Below, piece after piece: positions 3,269 through 21,778 of a stretch of DNA of 53,106 nucleotides. The DNA lies in contig NZ_GG692710.1 of NCBI RefSeq assembly GCF_000156175.1, positions 994,417-1,047,522 of the forward strand, read 5' to 3'. Every line of letters begins with the position of its first letter. Within the stretch, counting starts at the first letter, position 1. This DNA is from Collinsella intestinalis DSM 13280. Lineage in GTDB: Bacteria > Actinomycetota > Coriobacteriia > Coriobacteriales > Coriobacteriaceae. The notes below the pieces were generated by a model. It was given only the letters and a program-made list of their open reading frames with translations. It did no database searches and was not told the DNA's origin. The position numbers and the translations under genes were made by a program.

Positions 3269-3577
3269 GAGCTATCGCTCCCTTCTCGGCCCCGGTTCAC
3301 CCGTGGGCACCTGCCATACCGCCGGCACCGATACCGACGTAATTGCTGCATCCATTGTACAAAAGCGGCAGTTCACGTGCTGCGCTATTCACGCATGGCC
3401 GGCGTGTCCGCACACGCCCATCAGAAGAGAAACGAAAGATTCGCCCATCCTCGCGCATTTCGTCATATTTGCGTTCGTGATAAAACGAAAGAGAAACAAA
3501 CTCTTTTTGTTTCTCAAAAAGAAAATAATGCAAAATGAACTCATCACATTTTGCACACGATTGGCGAGGAGGCTTCC
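3269..3577. promoter_or_regulatory. Divergent control region between aldolase and DeoR genes
   Basis: This 309-bp gene-free stretch is markedly A/T-rich in its right half. It holds a perfect palindrome at 3491-3515 (separate entry) and two copies of ACGAAAGA, near 3429 and 3484. DeoR-family operators often contain such GAAA/TTTC blocks, so autoregulation and control of the aldolase are likely. No RNA gene was seen. Confidence 0.55.
3491..3515. promoter_or_regulatory. Palindromic operator candidate, GAGAAACAAA-N5-TTTGTTTCTC
   Basis: The 10-bp arms at 3491-3500 and 3506-3515 are exact reverse complements. The site lies 63 bp before the DeoR start. The adjacent DeoR-family protein is the natural candidate to bind it, as an inference from position and base content. 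Confidence 0.6.
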
Positions 3578-4490: not shown

Positions 4491-5426
4491 CTAGAGCTCG
4501 GTGACCTCAACGGCGTTGTAGACCTCGTCCCAGCGCTCGATGACCAAATGACCGGTCTGCGGGTCCATGGCGTTGAGCTTGCCGCAGGTGTTGGCCGTCT
4601 TGAGCACGGTCACGTCGTCGGCGCCGGCGGCGATGGCGTGCGCGAAGCCGGCGATGGTGGAGTCACCGGAGCCGGTGGCGTTCACGGCCGGGATCGGCGG
4701 GGTGACGGCGCGGTAGATCTTATCGCCGTGGAAGACAAAGGAGCCGGCGGCACCCATGGACACAACGACCCAAGGAATACCGGCGAAGCGCTCGTCGGCC
4801 TTGAGGGCGGCGGCCAGGTCGGTGACCTGATCGGGCGTGTAGCTGGTGCCGAGCAGGGCGTTGATCTCGGTGAGGTTGGGTTTCACGAGCGTGGGCTTGA
4901 CCTCGGCCTCGAGGGCGGCGTCGAGCGATGCGCCGGAGGTGTCGAGCAGCACGGGAACGTTGTGCTTGGCGGCCTCGGCGACCATGCCAGCGTAGAAGTC
5001 GGCGGGAACGCCCTTGGGCAGGGAGCCGGAGATGGTCACGCAGTCGGCCTTGGCGACGAGCTCGGCGAACTTAGCGGAGAAGGCGGCGAGCTCCTCGGCG
5101 GAAATCTCGGGGCCGCTCTCGAGAAGCTCGGTCTGGTTGCCATCATGCAGGATGTTCAGGCAGATGCGGGTCTCGCCGGCAATGGGCGTGAAGTCGTGGT
5201 TGATGCCGTCGGCGTCCATGAGAGAGCCCATGTAGGCACCCATGTGGCCGCCGAGCAGGCCTGTGGCAACAACGTCATCGCCGAGCTGGCACAGGACGCG
5301 GGAGACGTTGAGGCCCTTACCACCTGCGGTCTTCTTGGGGACGACGCGGTTCACGTCGTCGATGATCAGCTTGTCCAGCTGATACGCCGTATCGATGGCG
5401 GGATTCATGGTGACGGTCAGGATCAT
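4491..5426 (-). CDS. lacC: PfkB-family 1-phosphofructokinase / tagatose-6-phosphate kinase
   Basis: The 311-residue product opens with MILTVTMNPAIDTAYQL, typical of the FruK/LacC branch of the ribokinase family. It carries KTAGGKGLNVSRVL and the C-terminal NATGSGDSTIAGF, whose Asp is the catalytic base. It transfers phosphate from ATP to C1 of a ketose phosphate. The LacAB and aldolase genes favour tagatose-6-phosphate (LacC), but fructose-1-phosphate kinase activity is possible. AGGAGG four bases upstream fixes the ATG at 5426. The gene lies 102 bp after the epimerase, probably in one transcript. Confidence 0.85.
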   Translation of the reverse strand: MILTVTMNPAIDTAYQLDKLIIDDVNRVVPKKTAGGKGLNVSRVLCQLGDDVVATGLLGGHMGAYMGSLMDADGINHDFTPIAGETRICLNILHDGNQTELLESGPEISAEELAAFSAKFAELVAKADCVTISGSLPKGVPADFYAGMVAEAAKHNVPVLLDTSGASLDAALEAEVKPTLVKPNLTEINALLGTSYTPDQVTDLAAALKADERFAGIPWVVVSMGAAGSFVFHGDKIYRAVTPPIPAVNATGSGDSTIAGFAHAIAAGADDVTVLKTANTCGKLNAMDPQTGHLVIERWDEVYNAVEVTEL

Positions 5427-5528
5427 GGTTCCTCCTATTCTCGGACCCGATGTCCGAGTCCGGTACAACACGGTGAGGCCTCGGGCGGCACGACGTCCGC
5501 ATCGTCGTGCCGGACAGGACCGAAGGCG

Positions 5529-6413
5529 CTAGAGAATCTCGATCGAGAAGGTGCGGACGACGGTCTCGCCGGGCTTCGCGGTCAGGCAGCCGCGCTTGTC
5601 CTCGAATACATCGCCCTCATCGGAGCAGGTGGACAGGCCGCCCCACGGCTCGATGGCGACGAAATCGCCCTCGGGCTTGCTCCAGATGATGAGGTAGGGG
5701 AAGTCCGGGAAGGACACACGAAGGCCCTTCTCCTCCCCCTTCTTCACAAGGTCGACCGTACGGCTGTTGAGGACGTCGAAGATCGTCTCGGCGAAGTCGA
5801 AGAGCTCGTGGGTGAGCGGCAGCGTGCGGCCGACCATGGGGTTGGCGCTCCTGTTCTCCACGTCGATGAGGCCGGTGGACGGGACGGCGGTGCACAGGGT
5901 CGCGGCCTCGTCGGCATCGAAGCGCAGCTCGTAGTCGGAGTAGCCCTCGCCCTCGTCGAGCGGGCAGGCGAAGCCGGGGTGGCCGCCGATGAAGAACGGC
6001 ATGTCCTCGTCGCCCTCGTTGGTGACCTCGTAGCTCACCTGCAGCTTTGCGCCGTCGAGCGCATAGCGGGCGACCAACGTGAACGGGAACGGGAACTGCT
6101 CGAGCAGCTCGGGGTGCTCGGCGCTCGCGAGCTTGAACGCAATCGTGCCCTCGCCCTGCTCGGCGAGCTCCCACTCCTGCTTGCGGGCAAAACCGTGACG
6201 GCCCAGCTTGATCTGCTTGCCCGAGCGGGTCTGGGCAACGTCATCGCGCAGACCGCCGCAGATGGGGAAGCACACGGGAGCCTGACCGCTCCACACGGCG
6301 GGGTCTCCCTGCCAGAGATATTCACGCCCCTGGGAGACCAGGGAAGTGAAGGAGCCGCCGGCGGTGGTGAAGCCCACGCGCAGGGTGCCGTTGTCCAATA
6401 CGAATTCGGCCAT
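5529..6413 (-). CDS. Aldose 1-epimerase family protein (LacX-like)
   Basis: The 294-residue product belongs to the galactose mutarotase superfamily. It has the catalytic-type segments FPICGGLRDD, KLGRHGFARKQEW, FIGGHPGFACPL and, near the end, VAIEPWGGLSTCSDE. The expected catalytic His and Glu lie in GRHGFAR and IEPWGG. It would interconvert alpha and beta anomers of a sugar or sugar phosphate in the cytoplasm. LacX-type homologues sit in lac operons of Gram-positives, and this copy precedes lacC. Its own promoter lies in 6414-6540. Confidence 0.85.
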   Translation of the reverse strand: MAEFVLDNGTLRVGFTTAGGSFTSLVSQGREYLWQGDPAVWSGQAPVCFPICGGLRDDVAQTRSGKQIKLGRHGFARKQEWELAEQGEGTIAFKLASAEHPELLEQFPFPFTLVARYALDGAKLQVSYEVTNEGDEDMPFFIGGHPGFACPLDEGEGYSDYELRFDADEAATLCTAVPSTGLIDVENRSANPMVGRTLPLTHELFDFAETIFDVLNSRTVDLVKKGEEKGLRVSFPDFPYLIIWSKPEGDFVAIEPWGGLSTCSDEGDVFEDKRGCLTAKPGETVVRTFSIEIL

Positions 6414-6661: not shown

Positions 6662-7189
6662 CTAGTCGCGGTACTCGCCGCGGTCCCACTTCTCGATGAA
6701 CTCGTCGAAGAAGTGCGGATCGGCCTGGGCCTCGGCGTCGGCCTTGTTCACGGCGTCGATCTTGGCCACGAGGGCGTCGCGCTCGGGAGTCGACTCGTAC
6801 TCGGCCTCGAGGAACGCGAGCATGATGTCCGCCATGAGGAACTCGCCGGTGATCTTGCCGCCGAAGCCGACCACGTTGGCGTTGAGCTCGCGGCGGGCGT
6901 AGAGGGCGCTCGTCATATCGCGGACCAGGGCGCAGCGCGCGCCGGGCACCTTGTTGACGGAATTGGTGATGCCGATGCCGGTGCCGCAGAGGACAACGCC
7001 GAGGTCGGCCTTACCGGAGGCCACGGCCTCGCCCACGGCCTTGCCGTAGATCGGGTAATGGGTGCGGGTGTGGCTGTAGGTGCCGCAGTCGAGGACCTCG
7101 TAGCCGGCCTCCTCCAGGCGGTCGTGCAGGTACGTCTTCTCGTCGGTGACGATGTGGTCGCAGCCGAGCGCGATGATCTTCTTGGTCAT
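6662..7189 (-). CDS. lacB: Galactose-6-phosphate isomerase subunit LacB (RpiB/LacAB family)
   Basis: The 175-residue product has the RpiB fold landmarks: [17 protein letters not shown] at the start, [21 protein letters not shown] and the active-site loop [20 protein letters not shown]. The long C-terminal tail, ending [17 protein letters not shown], is typical of LacB and absent from ribose-5-phosphate isomerase B. With LacA it converts galactose-6-phosphate to tagatose-6-phosphate in the cytoplasm. It starts 12 bp after lacA and is surely co-transcribed. Confidence 0.9.
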
Positions 7190-7201: not shown

Positions 7202-7630
7202 CTAGGCCATCTTGTTGAGCATGTCGACGCGCACCTGGTGACGGCCGGCGGCGTAATCGGCCTTGAGGAACTCGCGGGCGATCTTCTTGGCGACCTCGGA
7301 GCCCACCACGGCGGAACCCAGGCAGACGATGCGGGAGTTGTTGTGCTCGCGCGTCATGTAAGCGCTGCGCTCATCGGAGATGTTGGCGGCGACCATGCCC
7401 TTGACGCGGGTCGCGGCCATGTAGCTGCCCACGCCGTACGCGTCGAAGCAGAGGCCCTGCGAGCCCTCGTTCTCCATCAGGTCGGCGGCCACGGCGGTGG
7501 CGGAATCCACGAAATCGGCCGCCGGGGTCTCGGACAGGTCCACGACCTCGTGACCATCGGCGAGGAGCGTCTCCTTGACGGTCTCCTTCAAGGGCATGCC
7601 CTCGACATCGGAAGCGATTACGACTCTCAT
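7202..7630 (-). CDS. lacA: Galactose-6-phosphate isomerase subunit LacA
   Basis: The 142-residue product is the LacA half of the heteromeric isomerase. It begins MRVVIASDVEGMPLKETVKE and carries CFDAYGVGSYMAATRVKGM instead of the CGTGIG loop of LacB, plus SDERSAYMTREHNNSRIVC. The ATG at 7630 is preceded by AAAGGAGG, so the longer frame from 7657 was not used. It leads the lacAB transcript. A 16-bp sequence shared with the PTS-sulfatase promoter lies 62 bp upstream. Confidence 0.9.
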   Translation of the reverse strand: MRVVIASDVEGMPLKETVKETLLADGHEVVDLSETPAADFVDSATAVAADLMENEGSQGLCFDAYGVGSYMAATRVKGMVAANISDERSAYMTREHNNSRIVCLGSAVVGSEVAKKIAREFLKADYAAGRHQVRVDMLNKMA

Positions 7631-7691: not shown

Positions 7692-7707
7692 AAACATATA
7701 CGAACAT
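7692..7707. promoter_or_regulatory. Shared operator candidate at the lacAB promoter
   Basis: AAACATATACGAACAT occurs here and, in the opposite orientation, at 16459-16474 before the PTS-sulfatase unit. The ATGTTCG half-site resembles those bound by GlpR-type DeoR proteins. It lies between a possible minus-strand -35 (TCGACA) and -10 (TATATC), where a repressor would block transcription. Confidence 0.6.
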
Positions 7708-7836: not shown

Positions 7837-8619
7837 TCAACCGCAGTATCGCACCACGTTGAAACCGCTGATTAAAATGATGGCGACCATGAGGCCGCAG
7901 AACAATTTGTCCACCGCGGCATCGTCGATGTGCTTGTTCACGGCGCGACCCGCGATACCGCCGAGGATGCCGCAGGCGGCCATGCCCGCGAGCAGCGCGA
8001 CGTCGAGGTTGGACACGCCGCCCACGATCGCCGCGATCGTGCTCGCGGCCTGCGAGAACAAGATGATGTACAGCGAGCTTTGGGCCGCGCGTTTGGTACT
8101 CATGGTAAAGAAGTAGAACAGGACCACGAGGTTGATGGGCCCTCCTCCGATACCCAGGAAGGAGGAGGAGATGCCCAGCACCAGGCCGATGGCCATGCAG
8201 GGAATGGCTCCGGTGACATTGTGGGTGGCGATCTTTTCCTTGTTCAGGGTGTACAGCAGCGTCCCCACCGTGACGAGCATGAGCGTTCCCGCCTGCACGG
8301 CGCCGGCGATGTTCGCGTCGCCGAAGAACGATGCGACCGCGGAGAACATCTGGCGCCCCGCCAAACCGCCCGCAGCCGCGCCGACGGCAAGCGGGGTGTC
8401 GATCTTCGGATCGATCTTAGAGTCCCCCGAGACCTTCGACTTAATCACCGAGTAGCACGTCATCGACAGCACGGTGCATCCGGACAGGAAGTTGATGGTC
8501 GCGACGTCCGCGGCGCCGACGGCATCCATGACGGGCTTGATGATGATGCCGCCACCGATACCGCAAATGGCGCCGATGGTGGAGGCGAAGAACGCAATGG
8601 CAAATACGATCGCTAGCAT
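7837..8619 (-). CDS. TauE/SafE-family sulfite/sulfate-type exporter
   Basis: The 260-residue membrane protein has about eight hydrophobic helices. Both TauE repeats are marked by glycine-rich loops, IGAICGIGGGIIIKPVMDA and SSFLGIGGGPINL. TauE/SafE proteins move sulfite, sulfoacetate or related oxyanions across the inner membrane. As last gene of a sulfatase and sulfatase-maturase unit, it most likely removes the sulfate or sulfite released in the cytoplasm. That role is inferred from context. Confidence 0.85.
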   Translation of the reverse strand: MLAIVFAIAFFASTIGAICGIGGGIIIKPVMDAVGAADVATINFLSGCTVLSMTCYSVIKSKVSGDSKIDPKIDTPLAVGAAAGGLAGRQMFSAVASFFGDANIAGAVQAGTLMLVTVGTLLYTLNKEKIATHNVTGAIPCMAIGLVLGISSSFLGIGGGPINLVVLFYFFTMSTKRAAQSSLYIILFSQAASTIAAIVGGVSNLDVALLAGMAACGILGGIAGRAVNKHIDDAAVDKLFCGLMVAIILISGFNVVRYCG

Positions 8620-8643
8620 ACGGACTTTTCGAATCCTTCCCTG

Positions 8644-9252
8644 TTACTTGGAGACGGCCGCGTCGAGCGAGCGCTCCGCACGCTCGCGATACGAAACGGA
8701 GCGGTCCTTATCTCCCTTGTTGTCATACTGGATCGCGAGCATCTGGCACAACAGCGCTTCCTCGACTCCGCTCGCGTCGGACAGGGCGCTCTCCATCTCA
8801 TTGATGTAGGCATGGGAACCCTTGAGGAAGATGTCGTAGGTGCGGCGGTTCGCCTTGGCCATGGACTCGTCTCCATTGGCCTCGAGGTACTCCAGCACCT
8901 CATGCGCATGGGGCTCGTCTTCGATCTCGACGTAGAAGGTGAAGGCCTTTGCGGCGAGCGCGAGCTTTTGCTTGTCGTTCATCTTGAGCGAGCTCATCTC
9001 ACGAATGACGGCGGCGGTCTTGTCGGCGTCGTCCATGGCGAGCAGTGCGTTCAAGCGCATGAACAGGACGTTGTACTTGGGATACAGGACGTTGGTGAGG
9101 GGACGATCGAGGACCTTCAGGTAATTCTCCAGATCGCCCTCGCGCAGATAGGCCTCGAGCTTGGCGAAGGTGGTGCGCTTCTGCACCTCCATGTAGATGG
9201 TGAACGCGAGCGCGACCACCATGACCACGATACCGACAGTCTTCATATCCAT
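8644..9252 (-). CDS. Membrane-anchored helical-repeat (TPR-like) protein of unknown function
   Basis: The 202-residue product begins with one membrane helix (TVGIVVMVVALAFTIYMEV). An all-alpha soluble part of about 175 residues follows, with TPR-like helix pairs (AKLEAYLREGDLENYLKVLD; HAHEVLEYLEANGDESMAKA; ALLCQMLAIQYDNKGDKDRS). Nothing catalytic is visible. It lies 15 bp after one sulfatase gene and 24 bp before the exporter, so it is part of the unit. It may scaffold sulfatase or exporter at the membrane. I do not recognise a named family. Confidence 0.7.
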   Translation of the reverse strand: MDMKTVGIVVMVVALAFTIYMEVQKRTTFAKLEAYLREGDLENYLKVLDRPLTNVLYPKYNVLFMRLNALLAMDDADKTAAVIREMSSLKMNDKQKLALAAKAFTFYVEIEDEPHAHEVLEYLEANGDESMAKANRRTYDIFLKGSHAYINEMESALSDASGVEEALLCQMLAIQYDNKGDKDRSVSYRERAERSLDAAVSK

Positions 9253-9267
9253 GTTCTTGCCTTTCTG

Positions 9268-10737
9268 CTAGCGACGAGGATGCTCGAGATTGACGGCGGG
9301 CTTGCACCCGACCCTTAACTCACCGTCCTTAACATACCCCTCTTCGCGGCCGGAGAGCTCCTCGATCAAAAGCGCGCGGAGCTCGGCGATGCGCTCGGCG
9401 CACTCCGGACGGTCGATGAGGTTCACGCACTCGCGCGGATCGGCATCCAAGTCGAAGTACTGCTCCACGCCCGTCTGCGTGAACCAGATGTACTTGTCGT
9501 GCGGGGTCACGATCCACTGGTTGGACTGTTCGCGGCTGCCACTGTGCTCGCCGCGCAGATAGGCGCGGTCGAGCGGAGCCATGCCGGCGAGCTCCCCCAG
9601 AAGCGATGAGCCCTCGACGCCCTCGGGCACGGGAAGGCCGCACGCCTCGAGAATGGTGGGCATGAGGTCCATGAGCTCCACGATGCTCTCGCTCACCCCG
9701 CAAGCACGCTCCCCTCCCGGCACCTCGACATCTTTGCCCACGTGCACGATAAAGGGGATGCGCGTGGAGCCCTCGTAGGGCAAGACCTTGCGGAACAGGC
9801 TGTGATCGAACAGCATCTCGCCATGGTCGGAGCAGAACACGATCACGGTGTCATGGTAGGTCTCGTCGTTCTCGAGCGCCGTGATGAGGCGGCCGACCTG
9901 ATGATCCATATGCGTGATGCAGGCGTAATAGCCCGCCATGGCCTCGCGACGCAGTTCGGCGTCGCGACAGCCATGCACGCTGTCCAGAATCATGCCGTCG
10001 CGCTCGGTGACGCCCGCGTCGTCCCAGTCGCCGACGGCGGGGGCCCGCAACTCCATATCGCGATACAGGTCGAAGTAGGTCTGCGGCGCGTCGAAGGGCG
10101 GATGGGGCCGCACGAAGCTCGTCATGAGGAAGAACGGGCGCGTGCGATCGCGCGTCTCGAGGAAGCGGATAGACTCGTCGACCACCCAGTTGGTGGGATG
10201 CAGGCGCTCCTCGTATGCCCAAGGGTGCGTGATCCACGAGTTGTTCTCCACACCGGTTCCGTTCACGTCGGCGAATTCACCCAGCTCGTCCTTGAGGAAG
10301 CGCATGTAGTCGTCTGAGACGTTCTGGTGCATCCAGTAGGGCAGGCTCGCCTTACGGTAATGCCCGATGTAGCCGTCGTGCAGGCGCACGTGCTCGAAGC
10401 CGCAGCCGAGGCGCGGCGGATGCACGTGCATCTTGCCGACCACGGCCGTCTGGTAGCCGCCGTCGCGCATCTCCTGCGCGAGCATATGGTCGTACTCCCA
10501 CGCAACACCGTCCTTGTATCCCACGCGGCCCGTGCCGGCAGGCGTCCTACCCGTGAAGAGGGCGGCGCGGGCGGGAATGCAACTCGGACACGCCGAGTAG
10601 GCGTTCTCGAACAGCATGCCGTCGGCGGCGAGTGTGTCGAGGTAGGGCGTCTTCACATCCGGGTGCCCGTCTATACCCAGACAATCGCCCCTCATCTGAT
10701 CGCACATGATGAGGAGCACGTTGGGTCGATTGGCCAT
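9268..10737 (-). CDS. Cysteine-type sulfatase, apparently cytoplasmic
   Basis: The 489-residue product belongs to the alkaline phosphatase/sulfatase superfamily. The formylglycine motif is C53-I-P-A-R57, read in SACPSCIPARAALFTGR, so it needs an anaerobic maturase. Metal ligands are suggested by LLIMCDQMRGD at the start and VFCSDHGEMLFDH mid-protein. It would hydrolyse a sulfate ester, probably on a sugar. No signal peptide is present: the start MANRPNVLLIM is the core beta strand. GGAGG fixes the ATG at 10737. It follows the maturase gene by 69 bp. The subfamily and substrate cannot be fixed by eye. Confidence 0.9.
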   Translation of the reverse strand: MANRPNVLLIMCDQMRGDCLGIDGHPDVKTPYLDTLAADGMLFENAYSACPSCIPARAALFTGRTPAGTGRVGYKDGVAWEYDHMLAQEMRDGGYQTAVVGKMHVHPPRLGCGFEHVRLHDGYIGHYRKASLPYWMHQNVSDDYMRFLKDELGEFADVNGTGVENNSWITHPWAYEERLHPTNWVVDESIRFLETRDRTRPFFLMTSFVRPHPPFDAPQTYFDLYRDMELRAPAVGDWDDAGVTERDGMILDSVHGCRDAELRREAMAGYYACITHMDHQVGRLITALENDETYHDTVIVFCSDHGEMLFDHSLFRKVLPYEGSTRIPFIVHVGKDVEVPGGERACGVSESIVELMDLMPTILEACGLPVPEGVEGSSLLGELAGMAPLDRAYLRGEHSGSREQSNQWIVTPHDKYIWFTQTGVEQYFDLDADPRECVNLIDRPECAERIAELRALLIEELSGREEGYVKDGELRVGCKPAVNLEHPRR

Positions 10738-10806
10738 GGGAACCTCCAAGCTCACGAGAATAGAGACGGATAGGCGGAAGCCGGGACGCACGTCCGACGA
10801 CGGACG

Positions 10807-11907
10807 CTAACGCCGGGCGAACATGCGCGCCACGCGCTGAAGGCCGGGATAGGCGTACTCGAGGAACTCGCGCAGGCCGCAGTACCCCTCGTCGTAATAC
10901 GCGATGTTCAAGCGCTTGCAGTTGCGATGGCACATGCCCTCGAAGGGGCAGTCCGCGCACTGCGAACAGGCGCGACGGGGCTCTCGCAAAAACGCGTGCA
11001 TCGCCTCGCAGGTCGCCATGGCCTCCAGGTCATCGTTGCGGATATCGCCCACGCGGTACTCGTCCAAGGCGTAAAAGTCGCATGGGTACACCGAACCGTC
11101 GCTCTCCACCACGAACTGCGGGGCACAGCGACCGAGCATCCCGCATTGCGAGGGAAACTGCCCGAGCGCCATCTGCATGATGTTCTCGAACAGCCAGATG
11201 CTCACATAGCTCCCGGCTCCCAGCTCGCGCCACCACAGGTCGAACAGGCGACGATAGAAGGACGAGAACTCCCGCGGGCCGAGTGAGAACGCGTCATGCT
11301 CGTCGTCGAGGCCGGGCAGGCACGGGATGAACTGGATGTGCGTGATCTTCTCCTGCTTGATGAAGGAGAAGACGCGCTGGGGATGCGCGGCCATCTGCGA
11401 GGTGAGGACCGACAGGACGTTTACGTCCACGCCGGCCTCGCGCAACAGGCGCACGCCGCCCATGACGCGAGCGTACGTGGCTGCGCCATGAGCGTCGGGG
11501 CGCATCGAGTCATGCAGGTCGCGATAGGCGTCAACCGAGACCCCGATGAGAAACCCGTGCTCGCGGAAGAACGCGGCCCATTCCCCGTCGATCAGATAGC
11601 CGTTCGTCTGCAACGCCCAGCTCACCTGCTGGCTCTCGCGGCGCTCCTCCACCCGAGCGACGAAGGAGCGGAAGAAATCAAGACCCGCGAGCGTGGGCTC
11701 GCCGCCCTGGAAGGCGAAGGCTACGTGGGCGTCAGGGGCGACGGCGAGGGCTCGCTCTATGATCGCATCGGCGACATCCCAACCCATGACGCGGGCGCGG
11801 CGCTCCTCGCGATGAGCGGCAACGTCGCAGTAAAAGCAATACCTGCAACGCATGTTGCAGGCGCTCGACGCCGGTTTAATCAAGAAGCCGATATGCTTCG
11901 CGCACAT
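10807..11907 (-). CDS. Anaerobic sulfatase-maturating enzyme (radical SAM, SPASM)
   Basis: The 366-residue product has the radical SAM motif CNMRCRYCFYCDVA near residue 18, the SAM-binding segment AFQGGEPTLAG and a C-terminal SPASM region rich in Cys (CGMLGRC, YPCDF, CSQCADCPFEGMCHRNC). AnSMEs oxidise the Cys or Ser of the sulfatase motif to formylglycine without oxygen, in the cytoplasm. The two neighbouring sulfatases carry Cys in that motif, so they are the natural clients. The gene lies between them. Confidence 0.93.
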   Translation of the reverse strand: MCAKHIGFLIKPASSACNMRCRYCFYCDVAAHREERRARVMGWDVADAIIERALAVAPDAHVAFAFQGGEPTLAGLDFFRSFVARVEERRESQQVSWALQTNGYLIDGEWAAFFREHGFLIGVSVDAYRDLHDSMRPDAHGAATYARVMGGVRLLREAGVDVNVLSVLTSQMAAHPQRVFSFIKQEKITHIQFIPCLPGLDDEHDAFSLGPREFSSFYRRLFDLWWRELGAGSYVSIWLFENIMQMALGQFPSQCGMLGRCAPQFVVESDGSVYPCDFYALDEYRVGDIRNDDLEAMATCEAMHAFLREPRRACSQCADCPFEGMCHRNCKRLNIAYYDEGYCGLREFLEYAYPGLQRVARMFARR

Positions 11908-12010
11908 GGCACACGCCCCCTTCGCACGGGATCGCCCTCGCTCCGAAGGCCGGACACCACCACCTTACCCGAGGGGGCGGCATCCGGCCCGCACAATCGA
12001 CGCCGTCGCC

Positions 12011-13507
12011 TTAGCCGAGGCCCAGGCGCTCTTTCTGCTCGGCAGGAGACTCGTGCTCCTCGAGACCGCGCAGCAGCAGGTCGATCATATGCTGCTCCGC
12101 CGCATCGCCCTTGCCGGCGAGGTTGTTGACCTGGCCGTAGTCGTTCTCAAGGTCGAACAACATGGTCTCGGAAACCTCGGCGAGCGGCGTAGTGCCCTCG
12201 ATCTGGGCCGGCTTCTTGCAGGGGATCTTGAACAGCGGGTACTTGGTGCGCTTGAAGTAGCGACCGCACTCGATCTCCTCCGGGCAGTCCGAACCCATCT
12301 TCTTGCGGATGGTGTGCGGCAGCGCGGCGTACTCGAAGCACGGTTGGTTGCCAGCAACCGGGGCGCGGAAGTAGGTGTAGCGGCCGTCGGTGACGTTGAC
12401 GGTCATGGCGTGCACGCCGTACAGGGCGTAGTCGCGCGTGGGCGCGTCGGGGTCGGTCATGAGCGGGACCAGGGAGGCGCCGCACACGTCCGCCGGGATC
12501 TCGCAGCCATGGGCGTCGAGCACGGTGGGCATGATGTCGATGGCCTGCGTGAGCTGATGGGCGTGTTCGCCCGCTCGGGCGTTGCCCGGGAAGTGCACGA
12601 TGAACGGCAGGTGCGCGAGCTCGTTGTACAGGTGCATGTAGTTCTTGCCCATGTAGTCGCGCTCGCCCAGGAAGTAGCCGTGATCGGTGGTGACCATGAC
12701 CATGGTGTCCTCGAGCATGCCGCGCTCGGCGAGCTTGTCGATGAGCTTGCCGAACCAGTGGTCGGTCATGGTGACCAGAGCCTTGTAGCGGCGCTGCAGG
12801 TAATCCTCCGCCTCGGGGTTCACGTCGGTAGCGGAGACGCGCTTGTACTCGGGAATCTCGAAATAGTCGCGGTCGAGCCCGCCGGTGCCGCCGTACATCT
12901 CCATGTACTTGTCCGGGACGTCGAAGGGCTCGTGCGGATCGAAGGCCTCGACCATGAGGAAGAAGTCATCGGCCCCGGCGTTGCCGTCGATCCAGTCGCA
13001 GGCGGACTGGAAGGTCTTGGGGCTCGGCATGTCCTCCTCGCTCGGCCACAGCTGACGGTTCTTCTGATACTGCTCGCGCACGCGCCCGTAGAAGGTCTCG
13101 GGCATGTTGTTCGGCTCGTCGATGCGGCTGACCCACGGGTCGCCCTCCTGGCCGCGGTAGTAGTCCCAGGTGTTGAACTCCTGCAGATAGCCCTCACCGC
13201 CGGTACGCAGGTAGTGACAGTGGTCGGTTGTGATGTGGCAGAAGTTGCCGTTCGCGCGCAGGCAGGCGGGCAGCGTCACGTCGAAGGGCTCGATGGGACC
13301 CCAGGGGCGCTCGAGGAAGTTGTAGCGGCCGGTGAGGATGTCGCGGCGGGCGGGCATGCACGGCGCCGAGCCGATCCAGTGGTTGTCGAACACGCAGGAC
13401 TGGTCCGCGAAGGCATCGAGGTTGGGCGTCTGGACATCGGTCGTGGGGTTGTAGCACGACAGGACGTCGCGGCGCAGGGTATCCATGAGCACGAGAACAG
13501 TTCTCAT
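12011..13507 (-). CDS. Second cysteine-type sulfatase, apparently cytoplasmic
   Basis: The 498-residue sulfatase has its formylglycine motif at C50-M-P-A-R54 (GSAPCMPARRDILTGR). Metal-site candidates are D9 in VLVLMDTLRRD and the pair in VTTDHGYFLGE. It is clearly diverged from the one at 9268 and has extra Cys residues (DCPEEIECGR, KIPCKKPAQ). No signal peptide is visible. The ATG at 13507 follows AAAGGA. It is first of the sulfatase genes behind the PTS, separated from IID by 154 bp that contain a hairpin with U-tract. Confidence 0.9.
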   Translation of the reverse strand: MRTVLVLMDTLRRDVLSCYNPTTDVQTPNLDAFADQSCVFDNHWIGSAPCMPARRDILTGRYNFLERPWGPIEPFDVTLPACLRANGNFCHITTDHCHYLRTGGEGYLQEFNTWDYYRGQEGDPWVSRIDEPNNMPETFYGRVREQYQKNRQLWPSEEDMPSPKTFQSACDWIDGNAGADDFFLMVEAFDPHEPFDVPDKYMEMYGGTGGLDRDYFEIPEYKRVSATDVNPEAEDYLQRRYKALVTMTDHWFGKLIDKLAERGMLEDTMVMVTTDHGYFLGERDYMGKNYMHLYNELAHLPFIVHFPGNARAGEHAHQLTQAIDIMPTVLDAHGCEIPADVCGASLVPLMTDPDAPTRDYALYGVHAMTVNVTDGRYTYFRAPVAGNQPCFEYAALPHTIRKKMGSDCPEEIECGRYFKRTKYPLFKIPCKKPAQIEGTTPLAEVSETMLFDLENDYGQVNNLAGKGDAAEQHMIDLLLRGLEEHESPAEQKERLGLG

Positions 13508-13596
13508 TGGGATCCTTTCATTTGGAGGGCGACACGCCGTCGGCGGCGGATCCACTCGGCATCCGCCCCGTGGCAGGCATCGGTCCCCGGCGGTCG

Positions 13597-13631
13597 AAAA
13601 GGCCCGCGCCCGATATGCGGGTCGCGGGCCT
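13597..13631 (-). terminator. Intra-unit terminator or attenuator between PTS and sulfatase genes
   Basis: On the minus strand AGGCCCGCG pairs with CGCGGGCCT (plus 13623-13631 with 13600-13608), and UUUU follows at 13600-13597. It could end most PTS transcripts and lower expression of the sulfatase genes relative to the transporter. Confidence 0.6.
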
Positions 13632-13661
13632 CGAACGATTTGCCTTATGGCAAGCTCGCGA

Positions 13662-14492
13662 TTAGGCGAAGATCTTGAACGCCGGGAAGTAGAAGCCGAT
13701 GGCGGCGAACACGAGGGAGAACACGATCAGGCCGATGATGATCTGAGCGGAGTTCTTGCCCTGGCCCTTCTTGAGCAGGCGGTAGCAGATGAAGGTCAGA
13801 ACCACGGGCAGCAGGAAGGGCAGCACCTTGTCGAGCTGATCCTGGAGCACCAGCGGGTCGCCCTCACCGAAGGCGAACTGCACGGCGAGCTTGAGCTTGA
13901 CGGTCGTGGCGATGAGGCCGCCGGTGACCATGACGCCCAGCACGTTGGCGAGGTTGCCCAGACGGTCGAAGACCTGGACGCCCGCCTTCTCCACGAGCTC
14001 CATGCCCATCTCGTAACCCTTGTGCAGGCCGAAGTACTTCAGCGGCCAGTACAGCAGGTTGATGAGCAGGAACATCACGAGCGGGCCCACGATGGAGCCG
14101 TTGTCGACGCACATGGAGGCGCCGATGGAGCCGGCGATCGGGAACCAGGTGAGGTTCAGCAGGGAGTCGCCCAGGCCGGCGAAGGGACCCATGAGGGAGG
14201 TCTTGATGCCGACGACGGTGTCCTTCTGGTCTTCATCCGTGGACTCCTCCAGAGCGGCGGTGATGCCGAGGATGAAGGGGATCGCGAGCGGGTGGGTGTT
14301 GAAGTACTCGAGGTGGCGCTTCATGGCGTTGACGCGCTCCTCCTTGGGGGCGTCCTTGTAGAGCTCCTCGAGAACGGGGGCGAAGCAGTAGGTCAAAGAC
14401 AGCGACTGCATGCGCTCGTAGTTGTGCGCGAACTGGCAACCCTGGGTGCGCAGCAGGACCTTGTTCAGGGTGGACTTAGAGATCTTACCCAT
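13662..14492 (-). CDS. PTS mannose/sorbose-family IID component
   Basis: The 276-residue membrane protein shows the IID signature: the N-terminal RTQGCQFAHNYERMQSLS, then YFNTHPLAIPFILGI, SLMGPFAGLGDSLLN and a C-terminal cluster of helices. With IIC it forms the translocation channel. Its start ATG overlaps the IIC stop by one base (TAATG), so the two are translationally coupled. It is the last of four PTS genes. Sugar specificity cannot be read, but the downstream sulfatase genes hint at a sulfated sugar. Confidence 0.92.
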   Translation of the reverse strand: MGKISKSTLNKVLLRTQGCQFAHNYERMQSLSLTYCFAPVLEELYKDAPKEERVNAMKRHLEYFNTHPLAIPFILGITAALEESTDEDQKDTVVGIKTSLMGPFAGLGDSLLNLTWFPIAGSIGASMCVDNGSIVGPLVMFLLINLLYWPLKYFGLHKGYEMGMELVEKAGVQVFDRLGNLANVLGVMVTGGLIATTVKLKLAVQFAFGEGDPLVLQDQLDKVLPFLLPVVLTFICYRLLKKGQGKNSAQIIIGLIVFSLVFAAIGFYFPAFKIFA

Positions 14493-15301
14493 TAGAGATC
14501 GTACTCCTCGTCATCATCAGAGCCGGCAGCAGGAGCGGCGGCAGGGGCGGGCTGATTCTTCTGGCCCTCGGTAATGACGTCCCACACACCGGCGGCGGCG
14601 CAGGCGGCCAGGGCGATGCCCACGGTCGGGACGTTGAGGAAGGCAGCCATGATGAAGCCGGCGAGCAGGAAGATCCACATGTACCTCTTCATCATCATGG
14701 TGAGGAGCATGGCCAGACCGACGGCGGGCATCATGCCACCGGCGGTGGAGAAGCCGGAGAGGACCCACGGAACCTGGTTCTGCAGGAAGTTCATGATGTC
14801 CTCGATCACGAAGGAGCCGATGCCCGTGGCGATGAAGACCGGGACGGCGCGAGTCAGGAAGAAGCAGAAGGCGCCGGTCCAGAAGAACTTGTTCACGGCG
14901 TTGAACTTACCGGACTCGATGGCCTTGTCGGCACCGTGGACGAGGGAGACGTTGGTGGTCATGACCAGGATGTTCAGCTGCTGAACGAGGGTCGCGGTCG
15001 GGATGCCGATGGCAACGGCGAGAGCGATGGCGGCGGCGGTGTCGCCACCACCCATGATGCCCAGGGCAGCACCGACGATGGTGCCGGAGATGACATCCGG
15101 CGGAACATAAGCGCCGATGTTGTTGACGCCGAGCCACATGAGCTCCATGGTGGCGCCGATCATGATGGCGGTCGTCATGTCGCCGAGGATGATGCCGACG
15201 CCCACGGACGCCAGCAGGGGCTTGCGGAAGCCCAGGTGGGGACCAAACTGGTCCCAGGTGCACAGACCCGCCCAGATGGCGAGCAGAAGTGCCTGAAGCA
15301 T
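14492..15301 (-). CDS. PTS mannose/sorbose-family IIC component
   Basis: The 269-residue IIC protein begins with ALLLAIWAGLCTWDQFGPHL. It carries the family's conserved membrane blocks GVGIILGDMTTAIMIGATME and YVPPDVISGTIVGAALGI. The C-terminal 30 residues are Ala/Pro-rich and end in an acidic tail (SDDDEEYDL). GGAGAGG before the ATG at 15301 decides the start; the longer frame to 15361 has no support. An 80-bp gap with a small hairpin (15323-15343) separates it from IIB. Confidence 0.92.
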   Translation of the reverse strand: MLQALLLAIWAGLCTWDQFGPHLGFRKPLLASVGVGIILGDMTTAIMIGATMELMWLGVNNIGAYVPPDVISGTIVGAALGIMGGGDTAAAIALAVAIGIPTATLVQQLNILVMTTNVSLVHGADKAIESGKFNAVNKFFWTGAFCFFLTRAVPVFIATGIGSFVIEDIMNFLQNQVPWVLSGFSTAGGMMPAVGLAMLLTMMMKRYMWIFLLAGFIMAAFLNVPTVGIALAACAAAGVWDVITEGQKNQPAPAAAPAAGSDDDEEYDL

Positions 15302-15381
15302 AAGCCTCTCCTTCCCTATTCGCCCATCGTTCGCTTCGATGGGCACACCCCGGGCCCACATGCCCGGAGATGGTTACCTAC

Positions 15382-15858
15382 TTAGTAGTTCTTGAGGAGC
15401 TCGGACACGGGCTCCTTGGAATCGCGCGTGGTGGTCTGCATCCAGCACTCGACGCCCAGGCCGATGAGCTCCTCGAAGGCGGCCTTCTCCTCGGCGGTAA
15501 CGGACATGTTCTTGTGCAGGCGGTGACGCTGGTCGTTGAAGCGCATGCCGGAGACGTTCAGGTAGTCGAACGGCAGGCCGTTCTCATGCAGCTTGAGGGC
15601 GTCGATGGGGTTGGTGAAGAGCACCATCGTGGCCTTCTTGAGCTCGGTCTTCTTGAGGACCTCGATGAACTTGTCGACACCGAAGACGGAGACCTTGATG
15701 TCAGGTGCGGCGAGGCCGGCCACGGACTTCTGAACGGGGTCGTTGGCGACCTTGTCGGAGACGATGATGGCGGACTCGATGCCGAAGTCCGGAATCCAAG
15801 TCGTGGCCACCTGGCCGTGAATCAGGCGGTCATCAATGTCGACGAGCTTAAGTGCCAT
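15382..15858 (-). CDS. PTS mannose/sorbose-family IIB component
   Basis: The 158-residue cytoplasmic phosphocarrier has its phosphorylated His at residue 14 in DIDDRLIHGQVATTW. It also has the family blocks VLFTNPIDALKLHENGL and LNVSGMRF. It takes phosphate from IIA and passes it to the incoming sugar. AAGGAG fixes the ATG at 15858. The 114-bp spacer from IIA has no clear terminator. Confidence 0.93.
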   Translation of the reverse strand: MALKLVDIDDRLIHGQVATTWIPDFGIESAIIVSDKVANDPVQKSVAGLAAPDIKVSVFGVDKFIEVLKKTELKKATMVLFTNPIDALKLHENGLPFDYLNVSGMRFNDQRHRLHKNMSVTAEEKAAFEELIGLGVECWMQTTTRDSKEPVSELLKNY

Positions 15859-15972
15859 GATGTTCTCCTTGTCGTTTGCACTTATGTTCATTGCTTCCAG
15901 CAAATGACGTAACACGTGGGGCGCCATCCGATGGGGGTGGTCGCGCCCTCGGGACCAGCGATCGCGGGCGAG

Positions 15973-16413
15973 CTAGAGGTCGAGATCGTCTCCATCGTCC
16001 TCCGCGACGGGAACAGGGGCCTTGATCTCCTGCTGGGCACCGGCATGCGCAGCGGTGATCTGCGCGCGAACGGCGTCGGCGGACTCGAGGCCATCGCGGG
16101 TCAACAGGAGCTCGACGACCACGGGCATCGACAGGCCGGTGTACGCGACCATGTCCATCCCGTTGAGCAGGGCGCGGGTGGTCACGTTGAACGGGGTGCC
16201 GCCGTAGATGTCGCACAGGGTGACGACCAAGTCGCACTCGGCGTTGAGCGCCTCGTAGGCCTCGCGCATCTCGGCCTCGAAGGTCTCCAGGCTCTTCTCG
16301 GCGGTGAGGCCAAGCGCCACGACGTCGCCCTGCTTGCCGGCGATCATCTCAACGGCGCCGAGGGCGGCGCGTGCAAACTCTCCGTGGCTCGCGAGGATAA
16401 CGCCAATACGCAT
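15973..16413 (-). CDS. PTS mannose-family IIA component
   Basis: The 146-residue IIA protein has the active-site His10 in MRIGVILASHGEFARAAL and the TLCDIYGGTPFNVTTRAL motif. Its tail is acidic (EDDGDDLDL). It receives phosphate from HPr. The ATG at 16413 is spaced six bases from AAAGGA and fits the family's usual start better than the ATG at 16428. It is first gene of the PTS-sulfatase unit, with an operator candidate 46 bp upstream. Confidence 0.93.
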   Translation of the reverse strand: MRIGVILASHGEFARAALGAVEMIAGKQGDVVALGLTAEKSLETFEAEMREAYEALNAECDLVVTLCDIYGGTPFNVTTRALLNGMDMVAYTGLSMPVVVELLLTRDGLESADAVRAQITAAHAGAQQEIKAPVPVAEDDGDDLDL

Positions 16414-16668
16414 CTGCTGTCCTTTCATGTTGTTTTGTTATGTTCGTTCTGCTCACTTATGTTCGTATATGTTTGATTATTGGTCAAGGATTGTTTTTGC
16501 AACGCGCTCTTTTTTATCGTTTTTAACTGGTATCAATAGATTTTTTCCCGTGAGCGTGCTGTTTTGGACGGTAAACGGTAGTTGTGTTTCTGTGCACGAT
16601 TTGCGTTTATTTTTGTTGTTCGTTTTAATTGAATTATGAACAAACGCTCTATAAGGAAGCTCACGGCC
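16414..16668. promoter_or_regulatory. Divergent A/T-rich control region, PTS-sulfatase unit versus DeoR pair
   Basis: This 255-bp stretch is much richer in A and T than its neighbours. ATGTTSGTT-like direct repeats start at 16427, 16440 and 16459, with ATGTTTG at 16469. The 16459-16474 block is identical to the reverse complement of 7692-7707. A TTGACC -35-like box (minus strand, 16482-16487) lies beside it. The region probably holds both divergent promoters and the DeoR operators. Confidence 0.6.
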
Positions 16669-17433
16669 ATGAAATCCGAACGTCAGCAAGCCATTCTCGA
16701 CCTGCTCGATCAACATCATTCCGTTACGGTCAACGAGATATCCAACACCCTGGGTGTTTCGGATATGACCATTCGGCGCGATTTGGCGGAGCTCGCCGAC
16801 AAGGGGCTGCTCGTGCGCGTACACGGCGGCGCCCAACTGCCGCGCTCCGCACGTGGTACGACTCTCTCGCGCCTGATCTCACACGAAGAGAAGCGCCATT
16901 TCCACGTCGACCAGAAACGCGCGGCGGCGATGGCGGCGGCGCGCACTGTCTCCGCCGGCGATACCATCTTCCTCGGCGGCGGCTCCACACTCGAACTCAT
17001 GTGCTCGTATCTGCCGCAGGAGGACATCCGCGTGGTCACCAACAGCCTCCCCGTCTTGAACTTATTGGCTGACAACCCCCATGTCGACCTCTTCTTCATT
17101 GGCGGCATGATGCGCCATGACACCCGCGTCTTCACCATGCCGTACAACGGCCGCGGTCTCTACGGCCTTTCGGCGCCAAAAGCCTATGTCTCCGCCACCG
17201 GAATTTTCGGAAATGAGGTCTTCGGCTCTCGCCCCGACGCGACCATGGTTCTTTCCGATGCCCTTGCACGCGCCCAGGAGCGCTATCTCGTTGTAGACGC
17301 AGAAAAAGTTGGTAGGCGCGACTTCTGCCTGTTCACCACCTTGGAAGAGATGACCGCGGCCTTCGTCAACGCCGACGCAGACCCCCAGACCCTCGAAGCG
17401 CTCAGCGCTTACACTTCCGTTGTCACCGCATAA
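16669..17433 (+). CDS. DeoR-family transcriptional regulator, first of a tandem pair
   Basis: The 254-residue product has the DeoR winged helix (KSERQQAILDLLDQHHSVTVN; SDMTIRRDLAELADKGLLVR; wing VHGGA). Its DeoRC sensor has AGDTIFLGGGSTLELMCSYL and VTNSLPVLNLLADN. The ATG at 16669 matches the start of the second paralogue (KSER) and follows AAGGAAG; the ATG at 16636 has no ribosome site. It is divergent from the PTS-sulfatase unit and likely controls it, sensing a phosphosugar. Confidence 0.9.
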   Translation: MKSERQQAILDLLDQHHSVTVNEISNTLGVSDMTIRRDLAELADKGLLVRVHGGAQLPRSARGTTLSRLISHEEKRHFHVDQKRAAAMAAARTVSAGDTIFLGGGSTLELMCSYLPQEDIRVVTNSLPVLNLLADNPHVDLFFIGGMMRHDTRVFTMPYNGRGLYGLSAPKAYVSATGIFGNEVFGSRPDATMVLSDALARAQERYLVVDAEKVGRRDFCLFTTLEEMTAAFVNADADPQTLEALSAYTSVVTA

Positions 17434-17447
17434 CCGATTGGCAAGCC

Positions 17448-18209
17448 ATGCTCAAATCTGAACGTCACGAACAATTGCTGGAACTGTGCACGCAGCGCGG
17501 TATGGTCACCGTCGCCCAAGCGGCGAAGATCTTCGGCATTTCCGAAATGACCGCTCGCAGGGATTTCGATGAACTCGCGCGAGATGGCGGCGTGAGCCGC
17601 GAGCACGGCGGCATCCGCCTATCAGGCGGGACCCCCACCGCCGGCGAGGTCCCCTTCTTTGAAAAGCTCTCGATACGCTCGCCCGAAAAGGAACGCATTG
17701 CGCACAGCGCGGTCGGTCTGATCAAGGAGCATGACACCGTTTTCCTCGGACCCGGTTCGACCTGCGCCCTCATCGCCCGCGCACTGCCGCCCATGCAGCT
17801 GCGCGTCATCACAAACAGCATCATCGTGCTGAACATGCTCCAAACGCGCAACGATGTGGAGATCTGCGCTCTGGGAGGACAATATCGCAAGCGCTCGGGG
17901 TCCTTCGTCGGTCCCGTAGCGGAAGATGCGCTCGCCCCACTCGGTATCGACACGTGCTTCATCGGCACCAACGGCGTGCTCGGCCAATCCATCTCCTGCT
18001 CCAACCTCGAGGAGGGTCGTCTGCAGGCGCTCGCTTGCGATCGAGCCGCCGAGCGGTACCTCGTCTGCGACTCAAGCAAGATCGGACAGATGGACTTCTT
18101 CGGCTTCTACAACCTCGATCAAATGGACGCGCTCATCACCGATCCAAATGTCAGCGACGAACAGTGCTCCATGGTCCTCGAATCGACCCGAATAATCGTC
18201 GCCGACTGA
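17448..18209 (+). CDS. DeoR-family transcriptional regulator, second of a tandem pair
   Basis: The 253-residue paralogue lies 14 bp after the first. It has the same layout: KSERHEQLLELCTQRGMVTV, SEMTARRDFDELARDGG, wing REHGG, then HDTVFLGPGSTCALIARAL and CDSSKIGQMDFFGFYN. Sequence identity to the first looks modest, so the two probably bind different inducers or act as a heteromer. Co-transcription is near certain. Confidence 0.9.
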   Translation: MLKSERHEQLLELCTQRGMVTVAQAAKIFGISEMTARRDFDELARDGGVSREHGGIRLSGGTPTAGEVPFFEKLSIRSPEKERIAHSAVGLIKEHDTVFLGPGSTCALIARALPPMQLRVITNSIIVLNMLQTRNDVEICALGGQYRKRSGSFVGPVAEDALAPLGIDTCFIGTNGVLGQSISCSNLEEGRLQALACDRAAERYLVCDSSKIGQMDFFGFYNLDQMDALITDPNVSDEQCSMVLESTRIIVAD

Positions 18210-18310: not shown

Positions 18311-19474
18311 TTACTTCTCGACGTAGACGCTCTCGCCGCCGAGATAGGTCTCGACGAGGGACAGGTCGCCGGTGAGGACGACGAAGTCGGCATTGCGGCC
18401 GGGGCGGATGGAACCGCACTCGTCGGCGATGTCGTTGGCCTCGGCGGGAGCCTGGGTGGCCATGTAGACGGCCTCGGCCTTCGTGGCGATACCCCACTCG
18501 TAAACGTTCTTGACGGCGTCCTTCATGTTGAGGATGGAACCGGCCAGAGAGCCGCCGTCCTTCAGGCGGGCGGTGCCGCCGGCAACGACAACGGGCAGCT
18601 CGCCCAAGAAGTAGTCGCCATCGGGCATGCCGCCGGCGCACATGCAGTCGGTGATGAGCGCGACGTGCTCATGGCCCTTGGCGTGCATCACGATACCCGC
18701 GGAGATGGGGTTGACGTGATGGCCGTCACAGATGAGCTCGGAGAAGGACTTATCCTGGCTGGAAAGGGCAGCGCCCACCATGCCGGGCTCGCGGTGATGC
18801 AGGCCGCTCATGCCGTTATAGGTGTGGACGAAGACCTTGGCGCCCGCGTCCAGGCAGGCCTGAGCCTGCTCGCAGGTTGCGGCGGAGTGACCGAGGGCCA
18901 CGACGACGCCGGACTTGACGGCCTCAGCGGTGAACTCGACGGCACCATCGTACTCGGGGGCGACGGCGATCTTCTTGACGAGGCCATGCGCGGCGGTCTG
19001 CCAGTCGTTCAGCTTCTCCATGGTGGGGGCGGAGAGGTAGGCCGGGTTCTGGGCGCCCTTGTACTTCTCGGTGAAGAAGGGGCCCTCGAGGAAGATGCCC
19101 TGGATGCGAGCGTGCGGCGTCTCGTCGCCAGCCTCGACGTACTCGGCAACGGAAGCGCAGGCGCGCTCGAGCTGCTCGGTGCTCGCGGTGAGCGTAGTGG
19201 GCAGGTAGCTGGTCACGCCGTTGCGCAGGATGCCACGGGACACGATGGCGACGCTCTCGGACTCGCAGTCCATGATGTCATGGTTATCGAAACCGTGGAT
19301 ATGGGTGTCGACGTAACCAGGAGCGATCTCGTGACCGGAGTAGTCGCGGATCTCGCAGTCCGGGGCCTCGGTCACATACTCGCCGAAAACACCATCCTCG
19401 ACCATGAGGTAGCCGCCACGGGCAACGCGAGTGGGCAGATAGAAGGCATCGGCCTTGATTGCATAAGTGCTCAT
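18311..19474 (-). CDS. nagA: N-acetylglucosamine/galactosamine-6-phosphate deacetylase
   Basis: The 387-residue amidohydrolase shows the metal motif H58-x-H60 in DTHIHGFDNHD, the metal Glu in GIFLEGPFFTEKYKG, His in VVALGHSAAT, substrate residues in VHTYNGMSGLHHREPG and the catalytic Asp in LITDCMCAGG. It removes acetate from an N-acetylhexosamine-6-phosphate in the cytoplasm. AGGAG before the ATG at 19474 fixes the start. It follows agaS, so N-acetylgalactosamine-6-phosphate is a likely substrate; activity on the glucosamine form is also possible. Confidence 0.92.
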   Translation of the reverse strand: MSTYAIKADAFYLPTRVARGGYLMVEDGVFGEYVTEAPDCEIRDYSGHEIAPGYVDTHIHGFDNHDIMDCESESVAIVSRGILRNGVTSYLPTTLTASTEQLERACASVAEYVEAGDETPHARIQGIFLEGPFFTEKYKGAQNPAYLSAPTMEKLNDWQTAAHGLVKKIAVAPEYDGAVEFTAEAVKSGVVVALGHSAATCEQAQACLDAGAKVFVHTYNGMSGLHHREPGMVGAALSSQDKSFSELICDGHHVNPISAGIVMHAKGHEHVALITDCMCAGGMPDGDYFLGELPVVVAGGTARLKDGGSLAGSILNMKDAVKNVYEWGIATKAEAVYMATQAPAEANDIADECGSIRPGRNADFVVLTGDLSLVETYLGGESVYVEK

Positions 19475-19540
19475 GTGTTCTCCTAACACGATATTGATGC
19501 ACGCACTGGGCTTGTACCCAGAAAGCAACGAACGAGCAGC

Positions 19541-19580
19541 AAGAAAAGCGCCCGCCCGTCCTTGCAGACCGGGCGGGCGC
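19541..19580 (-). terminator. Strong rho-independent terminator after agaS
   Basis: Arms GCGCCCGCCCG (19548-19558) and CGGGCGGGCGC (19570-19580) are perfect, and the minus strand continues UUUUCUU. It separates agaS from nagA, which probably has its own promoter or lives on read-through. Confidence 0.8.
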
Positions 19581-19605
19581 CTTCAATTCGAAATTCCGAG
19601 AGCTA

Positions 19606-20769: not shown

Positions 20770-20812
20770 TAATACCACTTCCTTTACACTTGTGGTTTTA
20801 CAAGCTGCTTTT

Positions 20813-20842: not shown

Positions 20843-20890
20843 TAGTTCTCGACTTCACGGGTTGGACACAATTGACGATTACCTGCCTGA

Positions 20891-20951: not shown

Positions 20952-20962
20952 CCACGCATGAA

Positions 20963-21694: not shown

Positions 21695-21778
21695 GAGAAC
21701 CGCCTCCGATACAAAAGGAAAATCGTCAATTCGAACGCAATGCGCTCAACGAGACGATTGCAATCGATGGGAATGATT

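Follow-up and report, generated by a model that had tools for sequence, protein, structure and literature searches.

An Operon of Collinsella intestinalis Combining a Mannose-Family PTS with Signal-Less Sulfatases and Its Probable Role in the Catabolism of Sulfated Galactose

Why would a bacterium keep a sugar phosphotransferase system (PTS), two sulfatases, a sulfatase maturase, and a presumed sulfate exporter together, and which sugar would such a set of genes serve? The question is raised by a nine-gene run in a stretch of 53,106 nucleotides (hereafter, the window) from Collinsella intestinalis DSM 13280 (contig NZ_GG692710.1, positions 994,417 to 1,047,522), which belongs to a 1.81-Mb genome that is 99.96% complete. 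The run extends from position 7837 to position 16413 of the window, entirely on the (-) strand, and contains, from left to right, genes for a TauE-type exporter, a small helical protein, a sulfatase (Sulf1), a radical SAM sulfatase maturase (anSME), a second sulfatase (Sulf2), and the PTS components IID, IIC, IIB, and IIA. The gaps within the run are short, the widest being 154 bases (between IID and Sulf2), followed by 103 bases (between Sulf2 and anSME). Pfam and NCBIfam searches bore out all nine genes, with the position, strand, and short spacing given for them in a preliminary description of this DNA, which had proposed that a sulfated mono- or disaccharide enters through the PTS and is desulfated inside the cell. 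Our analysis points to this operon being, probably, a catabolic route for sulfated galactose.

Both sulfatases presented the features of S1 formylglycine sulfatases, including the C-x-P-x-R motif (CMPAR in Sulf2 and CIPAR in Sulf1). Sulf2, the PTS-coupled Cys-type sulfatase (12011–13507, (-) strand), matched PF00884 with E = 4e-34, while Sulf1, also of the Cys type (approximately 9268–10737, (-) strand), matched the same family with E = 2e-49 and PRK13759 with 590 bits (cut-off 481). Across 50 Sulf2 relatives, the motif residues C50, P52, and R54 and the metal ligands D9, D275, and H276 are invariant. An AlphaFold model of Sulf2 built on 50 sequences (pLDDT 94.9) presented the fold of the alkaline phosphatase superfamily and S1 sulfatases, and matched sulfatases in the PDB with Z values of 30–35 (up to 34.6) over ~350–400 aligned residues (root-mean-square deviation 2.6–3.9); an earlier model built on 22 close relatives was weak at the active site (pLDDT 69.5). 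The start codon of each sulfatase, with a plausible Shine-Dalgarno sequence, lies directly before the core strand (MANRPNVLLIMCDQ and MRTVLVLMDTLRRD), and the frames read upstream of both starts encode no convincing signal peptide; Met1 is invariant in 50/50 aligned Sulf2 relatives from several phyla, immediately before the core strand. We considered extracellular action through a missed leader and rejected it. Initiation at a GTG codon located 54 bases before Sulf1 would yield a weakly hydrophobic leader, but the Sulf1 ATG is preceded by the Shine-Dalgarno sequence GGAGGT, and the leader from the GTG start is not common to the relatives read. The claim of the preliminary description that both enzymes lack a signal peptide therefore held and, judged from sequence, Sulf1 and Sulf2 appear not to carry the N-terminal signal peptide that characterizes the secreted sulfatases of the Bacteroides model.

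The anSME gene (10807–11907, (-) strand) encodes a protein with both radical SAM (PF04055) and SPASM (PF13186) domains; its best match, TIGR03942, scored 329.6 bits, slightly below the cut-off of 349, and other matches to anSME models in the genome scored just 109 and 36 bits. A search of the genome for the sulfatase family gave four matches, two of which are Sulf1 and Sulf2; C-x-P-x-R is missing from the remaining two, both membrane proteins. Because the other matches to these families either lack the motif or score low, every Cys-type sulfatase of this genome, together with its probable maturase, appears to be kept within this one unit. The PTS is complete, with mannose-family IID (13662–14492; PF03613, E = 9e-83), IIC (14492–15301; PF03609, E = 3e-64), IIB (15382–15858; PF03830, E = 3e-40; phospho-histidine motif DDRLIHGQVA), and IIA (15973–16413; PF03610, E = 3e-21), all on the (-) strand. 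The phospho-histidines are retained in IIA (ASHGEF) and IIB (LIHGQV), and phosphorylation of the sugar on import is therefore expected. At the left end of the run, the TauE/SafE-family exporter (7837–8619, (-) strand; PF01925, E = 4.5e-26) is presumed to act in sulfate efflux.

Sulf2 orthologues with 70–95% identity were found in 19 of the 397 genomes of the order Coriobacteriales (this genome counted), in two families, and a scan of named genomes identified Sulf2 at 54–64% in Massilimicrobiota, Dielma fastidiosa, Clostridium cadaveris, a Tissierellia metagenome-assembled genome, an Aerococcaceae strain, and Streptococcus pseudopneumoniae. The preliminary description had proposed looking for this gene order in other Coriobacteriia, and the placement of Sulf2 beside the PTS does recur there and in several Bacillota, with IIA-IIB-IIC-IID directly beside Sulf2 in 24/24 main-clade neighbourhoods read; in the 25th, from D. 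fastidiosa (locus L067), a Sulf2-like gene stands beside a different mannose-family PTS. Among these 25 neighbourhoods, anSME was present in 19, TauE and Sulf1 in 17 each, a DeoR homologue in 20, and LacA/LacB, in varying orientation, in 16. In a tree, all PTS-linked Sulf2 proteins fall into a single clade that is nested within a larger signal-less family, and no PTS of this kind was found near the other members of that family that were sampled. Sulf1 is present in 17 of the 397 genomes, all of them within the 19 that carry main-clade Sulf2 (p ≈ 6e-28, without correction for phylogeny).

Which sugar the unit serves is best read from its flanks, which the preliminary description, ending at positions 7837 and 16413, overlooked: lac genes lie on the left and an N-acetylgalactosamine (GalNAc) pathway on the right. 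LacA (7202–7630, (-) strand; PRK08621, 200.6 bits, cut-off 164; TIGR01118, 183.7 bits, cut-off 181.1) and LacB (6662–7189, (-) strand; PRK08622, 271 bits, cut-off 234), the latter a single copy in the genome, both exceed curated equivalog cut-offs for the subunits of galactose-6-phosphate isomerase. To their left are an aldose-1-epimerase family protein (5529–6413, (-) strand; PF01263, E = 4e-27), which might act as a mutarotase on the sugar or its phosphate, and a PfkB kinase (4491–5471, (-) strand), which is LacC-like by its best NCBIfam matches; these are models of tagatose-6-phosphate kinase, with 360 and 358 bits, below their cut-offs of 469 and 410, and the protein exceeds a hexose kinase cut-off. 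Beyond a DeoR-family regulator (3551–4387, (+) strand; DeoRC and HTH_DeoR) lies a class II ketose-bisphosphate aldolase with a putative LacD function (2420–3268, (-) strand; PF01116, E = 4e-103), whose best matches are tagatose-bisphosphate aldolases (PRK09195, 351 bits, below the cut-off of 384; TIGR00167, above its cut-off). Biochemically, LacAB is needed for galactose-6-phosphate and not for GalNAc. The same association is more compact elsewhere: C. cadaveris presented a contiguous IIA-IIB-IIC-IID-Sulf2-LacA-LacB-aldolase-LacC-like kinase run, and Aerococcaceae NML190073 a PTS-Sulf2-anSME-FGE-LacA-LacB-LacC-epimerase run; no deacetylase or deaminase was found near either run, and neither contains aga genes.

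The lac genes and the PTS/sulfatase unit also share an operator-like sequence. An exact-match search of the genome found the 12-mer TTCGTATATGTT only twice, before LacA (7693–7704, (-) strand) and before IIA (16462–16473), where it forms part of a cluster of two WACGAACAW sites (16440–16473, (-) strand). For the core WACGAACAW, the window contains five occurrences, as compared to 0.63 expected from mononucleotide shuffling, and four of the five are in the intergenic regions upstream of LacA and IIA; several relatives also carry the core between IIA and the DeoR gene, and an Atopobiaceae locus (L042) has it before LacA as well. A 10-base version was non-specific genome-wide (six matches, equal to the reversed control), and a sigma-70 promoter scan gave no match. 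Two further DeoR-family regulators, one divergent from the PTS (16636–17433, (+) strand) and a second next to it (17448–18209, (+) strand), lie to the right of IIA, and the operator-like sequences would fit a common DeoR-type regulon that covers both the lac genes and the PTS/sulfatase unit.

Because LacA and LacB are linked to the unit, because the C. cadaveris and Aerococcaceae runs lack GalNAc genes, and because galactose-6-phosphate requires LacAB while GalNAc does not, sulfated galactose is the best-supported sugar, and the shared operator-like sequence points the same way. The preliminary description had required a free C6 for PTS phosphorylation, an argument strengthened by LacAB, which works on a 6-phosphate; the sulfate should therefore not sit on O6. 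The identity of the sugar, the position of its sulfate, whether desulfation follows phosphorylation, what TauE and Sulf1 do, and how the genes are regulated are all inferred, as follows. The PTS would import free galactose with a sulfate ester on O2, O3, or O4 and phosphorylate C6; Sulf2, activated by the anSME of the operon, would then strip the sulfate from sulfo-galactose-6-phosphate inside the cell, LacA/LacB would isomerize the resulting galactose-6-phosphate, the LacC-like kinase would phosphorylate the product, and the tagatose-bisphosphate-type aldolase would cleave it. The freed sulfate would be disposed of by TauE, Sulf1 may take off a second sulfate or serve a sister substrate, and DeoR-family regulators would govern the PTS/sulfatase unit together with the lac genes. 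Colonic mucin carries 3-O-sulfated galactose (PMC10154612), and our leading guess for the host source is 3-O-sulfogalactose from mucin. The alignment of Sulf2 itself holds a possible hint: Arg101 and Arg283 are conserved throughout the PTS-linked clade and are mostly replaced by E/S/A and by His, respectively, in non-PTS relatives, and an additional anion, for instance a 6-phosphate, might account for them.

The main elements of the preliminary proposal, i.e., PTS import, cytoplasmic desulfation, and sulfate disposal, are supported by the signal-less sulfatases, the linkage of PTS and Sulf2 across phyla, the co-localized maturase and TauE, and the PTS histidines, while the substrate is our putative assignment from gene context. 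Several points weigh against the proposed route. LacAB lies outside the neighbourhood read in 9/25 cases (LacB was encoded in 5/5 Sulf2 genomes checked among those without lacAB in the neighbourhood), TauE is missing from some neighbourhoods and its presumed cargo is read from the Pfam family match, and a GalNAc pathway adjoins the unit in this genome. Free sulfogalactose needs an enzyme to release it, and searches of the genome found no GH2, GH35, or GH42 β-galactosidase; this strain therefore probably scavenges sugar freed by others. An attempt to place Sulf2 in one S1 subfamily by fold was abandoned, as many subfamilies tie (S1_25, S1_7, PsS1_NC, and S1_46 fall within about 2 Z units of one another); the fold fits many of them about equally well, and the sulfate position cannot be read from it. 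An Arg at the position of Arg283 is also present in the phosphonate monoester hydrolase 4UPK, which leaves that residue as a hint.

The neighbouring GalNAc pathway is the basis of an alternative, unlikely in our judgement, in which the imported sugar is 3- or 4-sulfated GalNAc, desulfated to GalNAc-6-phosphate and then converted by AgaA and AgaS to tagatose-6-phosphate. Immediately to the right of the unit, a complete GalNAc catabolic operon (18311–25139, (-) strand) encodes a NagA/AgaA-like deacetylase, an AgaS-like isomerase, a GntR-UTRA regulator, and a second mannose-family PTS (IID, IIC, IIB, and IIA) that is AgaF/AgaW-like, with a YajC-like gene (24412–24696) between IIB and IIA. The IIA of the sulfatase unit also scores best against AgaF; however, this score is under the cut-off, and IIA, IIC, and IID of the unit all fall below the Aga equivalog cut-offs when compared with the AgaF, AgaW, and AgaE models. 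The GalNAc operon has a PTS and a GntR regulator of its own, AgaA and AgaS homologues are present in only 5 and 3 of the 25 Sulf2 neighbourhoods, as compared to 16 for LacA/LacB, and the C. cadaveris and Aerococcaceae runs carry lac genes without aga genes. A sulfated disaccharide that is cleaved inside the cell, whether an unsaturated glycosaminoglycan disaccharide or a sulfated lactose, N-acetyllactosamine, or core-1 unit, seems less probable still. Mannose-family PTSs of streptococci do import glycosaminoglycan disaccharides, and at the Tissierellia locus a gene for a secreted GH101 endo-α-N-acetylgalactosaminidase lies just upstream. However, a search of the genome for GH88 found none, which makes glycosaminoglycan disaccharides unlikely; the missing GH2, GH35, and GH42 enzymes also count against a disaccharide, as does the unit itself, which contains no glycosidase, the single GH1 of the genome being located elsewhere on the contig. 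Of the mono- or disaccharide allowed by the preliminary description, sulfated galactose is favoured by the LacA/LacB linkage and the shared operator-like sequence.

Two further explanations concern the sulfatases rather than the sugar. The closest solved relative of Sulf1 is 9KOQ (phmmer E = 2e-112), followed by 7OZ8; 9KOQ is the Mn-dependent arylsulfatase EfAS of Enterococcus faecium, assayed with aryl substrates, caerulein, and estrone sulfate (PMC12421950), and 7OZ8 is BT1918, a 3S-GlcNAc sulfatase and hence a carbohydrate 3-sulfatase (PMC10154620). The first of these relatives would agree with a reading in which both sulfatases target aryl or other non-sugar sulfates and only happen to be encoded in one operon with a galactose-type PTS. 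We regard this as improbable, given that Sulf2 is strictly linked to the PTS over several lineages, that the second relative of Sulf1 acts on a carbohydrate, and that broad activity toward model substrates does not identify the natural one. The least probable explanation, to which we give very little weight, is that sulfate is scavenged from imported esters as a source of sulfur rather than carbon. Some bacteria do scavenge sulfur by means of sulfatases, but this unit encodes an exporter of the TauE type, lacks any gene for sulfate assimilation, and is associated with lac genes of carbon catabolism and with regulators of the DeoR type.

Related modules and accessory genes were also observed around Sulf2 homologues. 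A second Sulf2-like clade (50–52% identity) is found with a different mannose-family PTS in the D. fastidiosa locus and in two Atopobiaceae loci (L042 and L050), where its gene lies just past the main unit; this pairing suggests that the PTS-sulfatase module recurs in a version for a sister substrate. A third, distant sulfatase adjoins yet another mannose-family PTS, past TauE, in Thermophilibacter provencensis (L057, 16855–20100) and in L043. Genes for FGE/SUMF1-type maturation factors occur alongside anSME in the same locus (L065, 12639–13520; L066, 11499–12362), possibly providing two maturation routes for one sulfatase. In S. pseudopneumoniae (L066, 13232–16231), the PTS-Sulf2-FGE-TauE genes are directly followed downstream by a gene for a putatively secreted 999-aa protein with LamG and α-L-arabinofuranosidase-like domains; this enzyme and the GH101 of the Tissierellia locus may release the sulfated sugar at their respective loci. 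The small protein of the Collinsella unit (8644–9252, (-) strand), whose translation presented one N-terminal transmembrane segment and helical repeats and no confident family, adjoins the unit in 17/25 neighbourhoods, all of them from Coriobacteriia and none from Bacillota. Elsewhere in the window, a choloylglycine hydrolase/acyltransferase family protein with an N-terminal membrane segment is encoded at 40716–41855 ((-) strand).

The contrast that the preliminary description drew with secreted Bacteroides sulfatases is right, although the concept has prior art in pneumococci. The mucin sulfatases of Bacteroides thetaiotaomicron (BT1636, S1_20; BT4683, S1_4; and BT1918, S1_46, among others) are S1 Cys-type formylglycine enzymes like Sulf1 and Sulf2 and are likewise aimed at sulfated mucin sugars; however, they carry signal peptides, function on the cell surface or in the periplasm, and have no PTS. 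The pneumococcal accessory island SPH1922-1930 contains, in order, genes for a ROK protein, a cellobiose/lactose-type PTS, a sulfatase, a sulfatase-modifying factor, and TauE; cooperation between its PTS and sulfatase has been raised but not shown, and its deletion lowers in vivo fitness (McAllister 2012, PMC3283741; Bidossi 2012, PMC3302838). The island and the Collinsella unit both join a PTS, a sulfatase, a maturation factor, and a TauE/SafE exporter. They differ in that the island has a lactose/cellobiose-type PTS, a ROK regulator, and no described lac tagatose genes, while in the Collinsella unit the PTS is of the mannose family, the regulators are of the DeoR type, there are two sulfatases, and a galactose-6-phosphate/tagatose pathway is linked to these genes. 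The arrangement is therefore known, though unproven, in pneumococci, and what is new here is the mannose-family PTS, the two sulfatases, and the galactose-6-phosphate/tagatose link. In the lac PTS system of staphylococci and streptococci, LacA, LacB, LacC, and an aldolase convert galactose-6-phosphate to triose phosphates, as in the Collinsella locus; there the pathway is fed by a lactose PTS and a phospho-β-galactosidase, while in Collinsella it would be fed by a mannose-family PTS and a sulfatase. EfAS presented a catalytic residue set identical to that of Sulf1 and has been characterized with aryl and model compounds; neither "PTS" nor "operon" appears as a word in the main text of its description (PMC12421950). 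A full-text literature search found no other paper joining PTS, sulfatase, and tagatose pathway, the sole match being a survey of pneumococcal transporters, and we found no description in the literature of sulfo-galactose-6-phosphate as a catabolic intermediate or of a sulfatase for it.

Sulfate is one of the chief chemical barriers that protect colonic mucin, and its removal is attributed in current models to surface or periplasmic sulfatases of Bacteroidota. We put at about even the chances of a broader proposal, in which Sulf2 would found a clade of cytoplasmic sulfatases for PTS-made sulfo-galactose-6-phosphate, with members in Coriobacteriia, Erysipelotrichia, Clostridia, Tissierellia, and Lactobacillales, and would open sulfated host galactose to bacteria without a secreted sulfatase. 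If true, a sulfatase for sugar-phosphate sulfates would represent a new activity, and the question of whether linked PTS and sulfatase genes cooperate, open in pneumococci since 2012, would gain a concrete substrate. Host-associated Actinomycetota and Bacillota would then import sulfated galactose intact and desulfate it inside the cell, living as selfish scavengers on sugars that others release.

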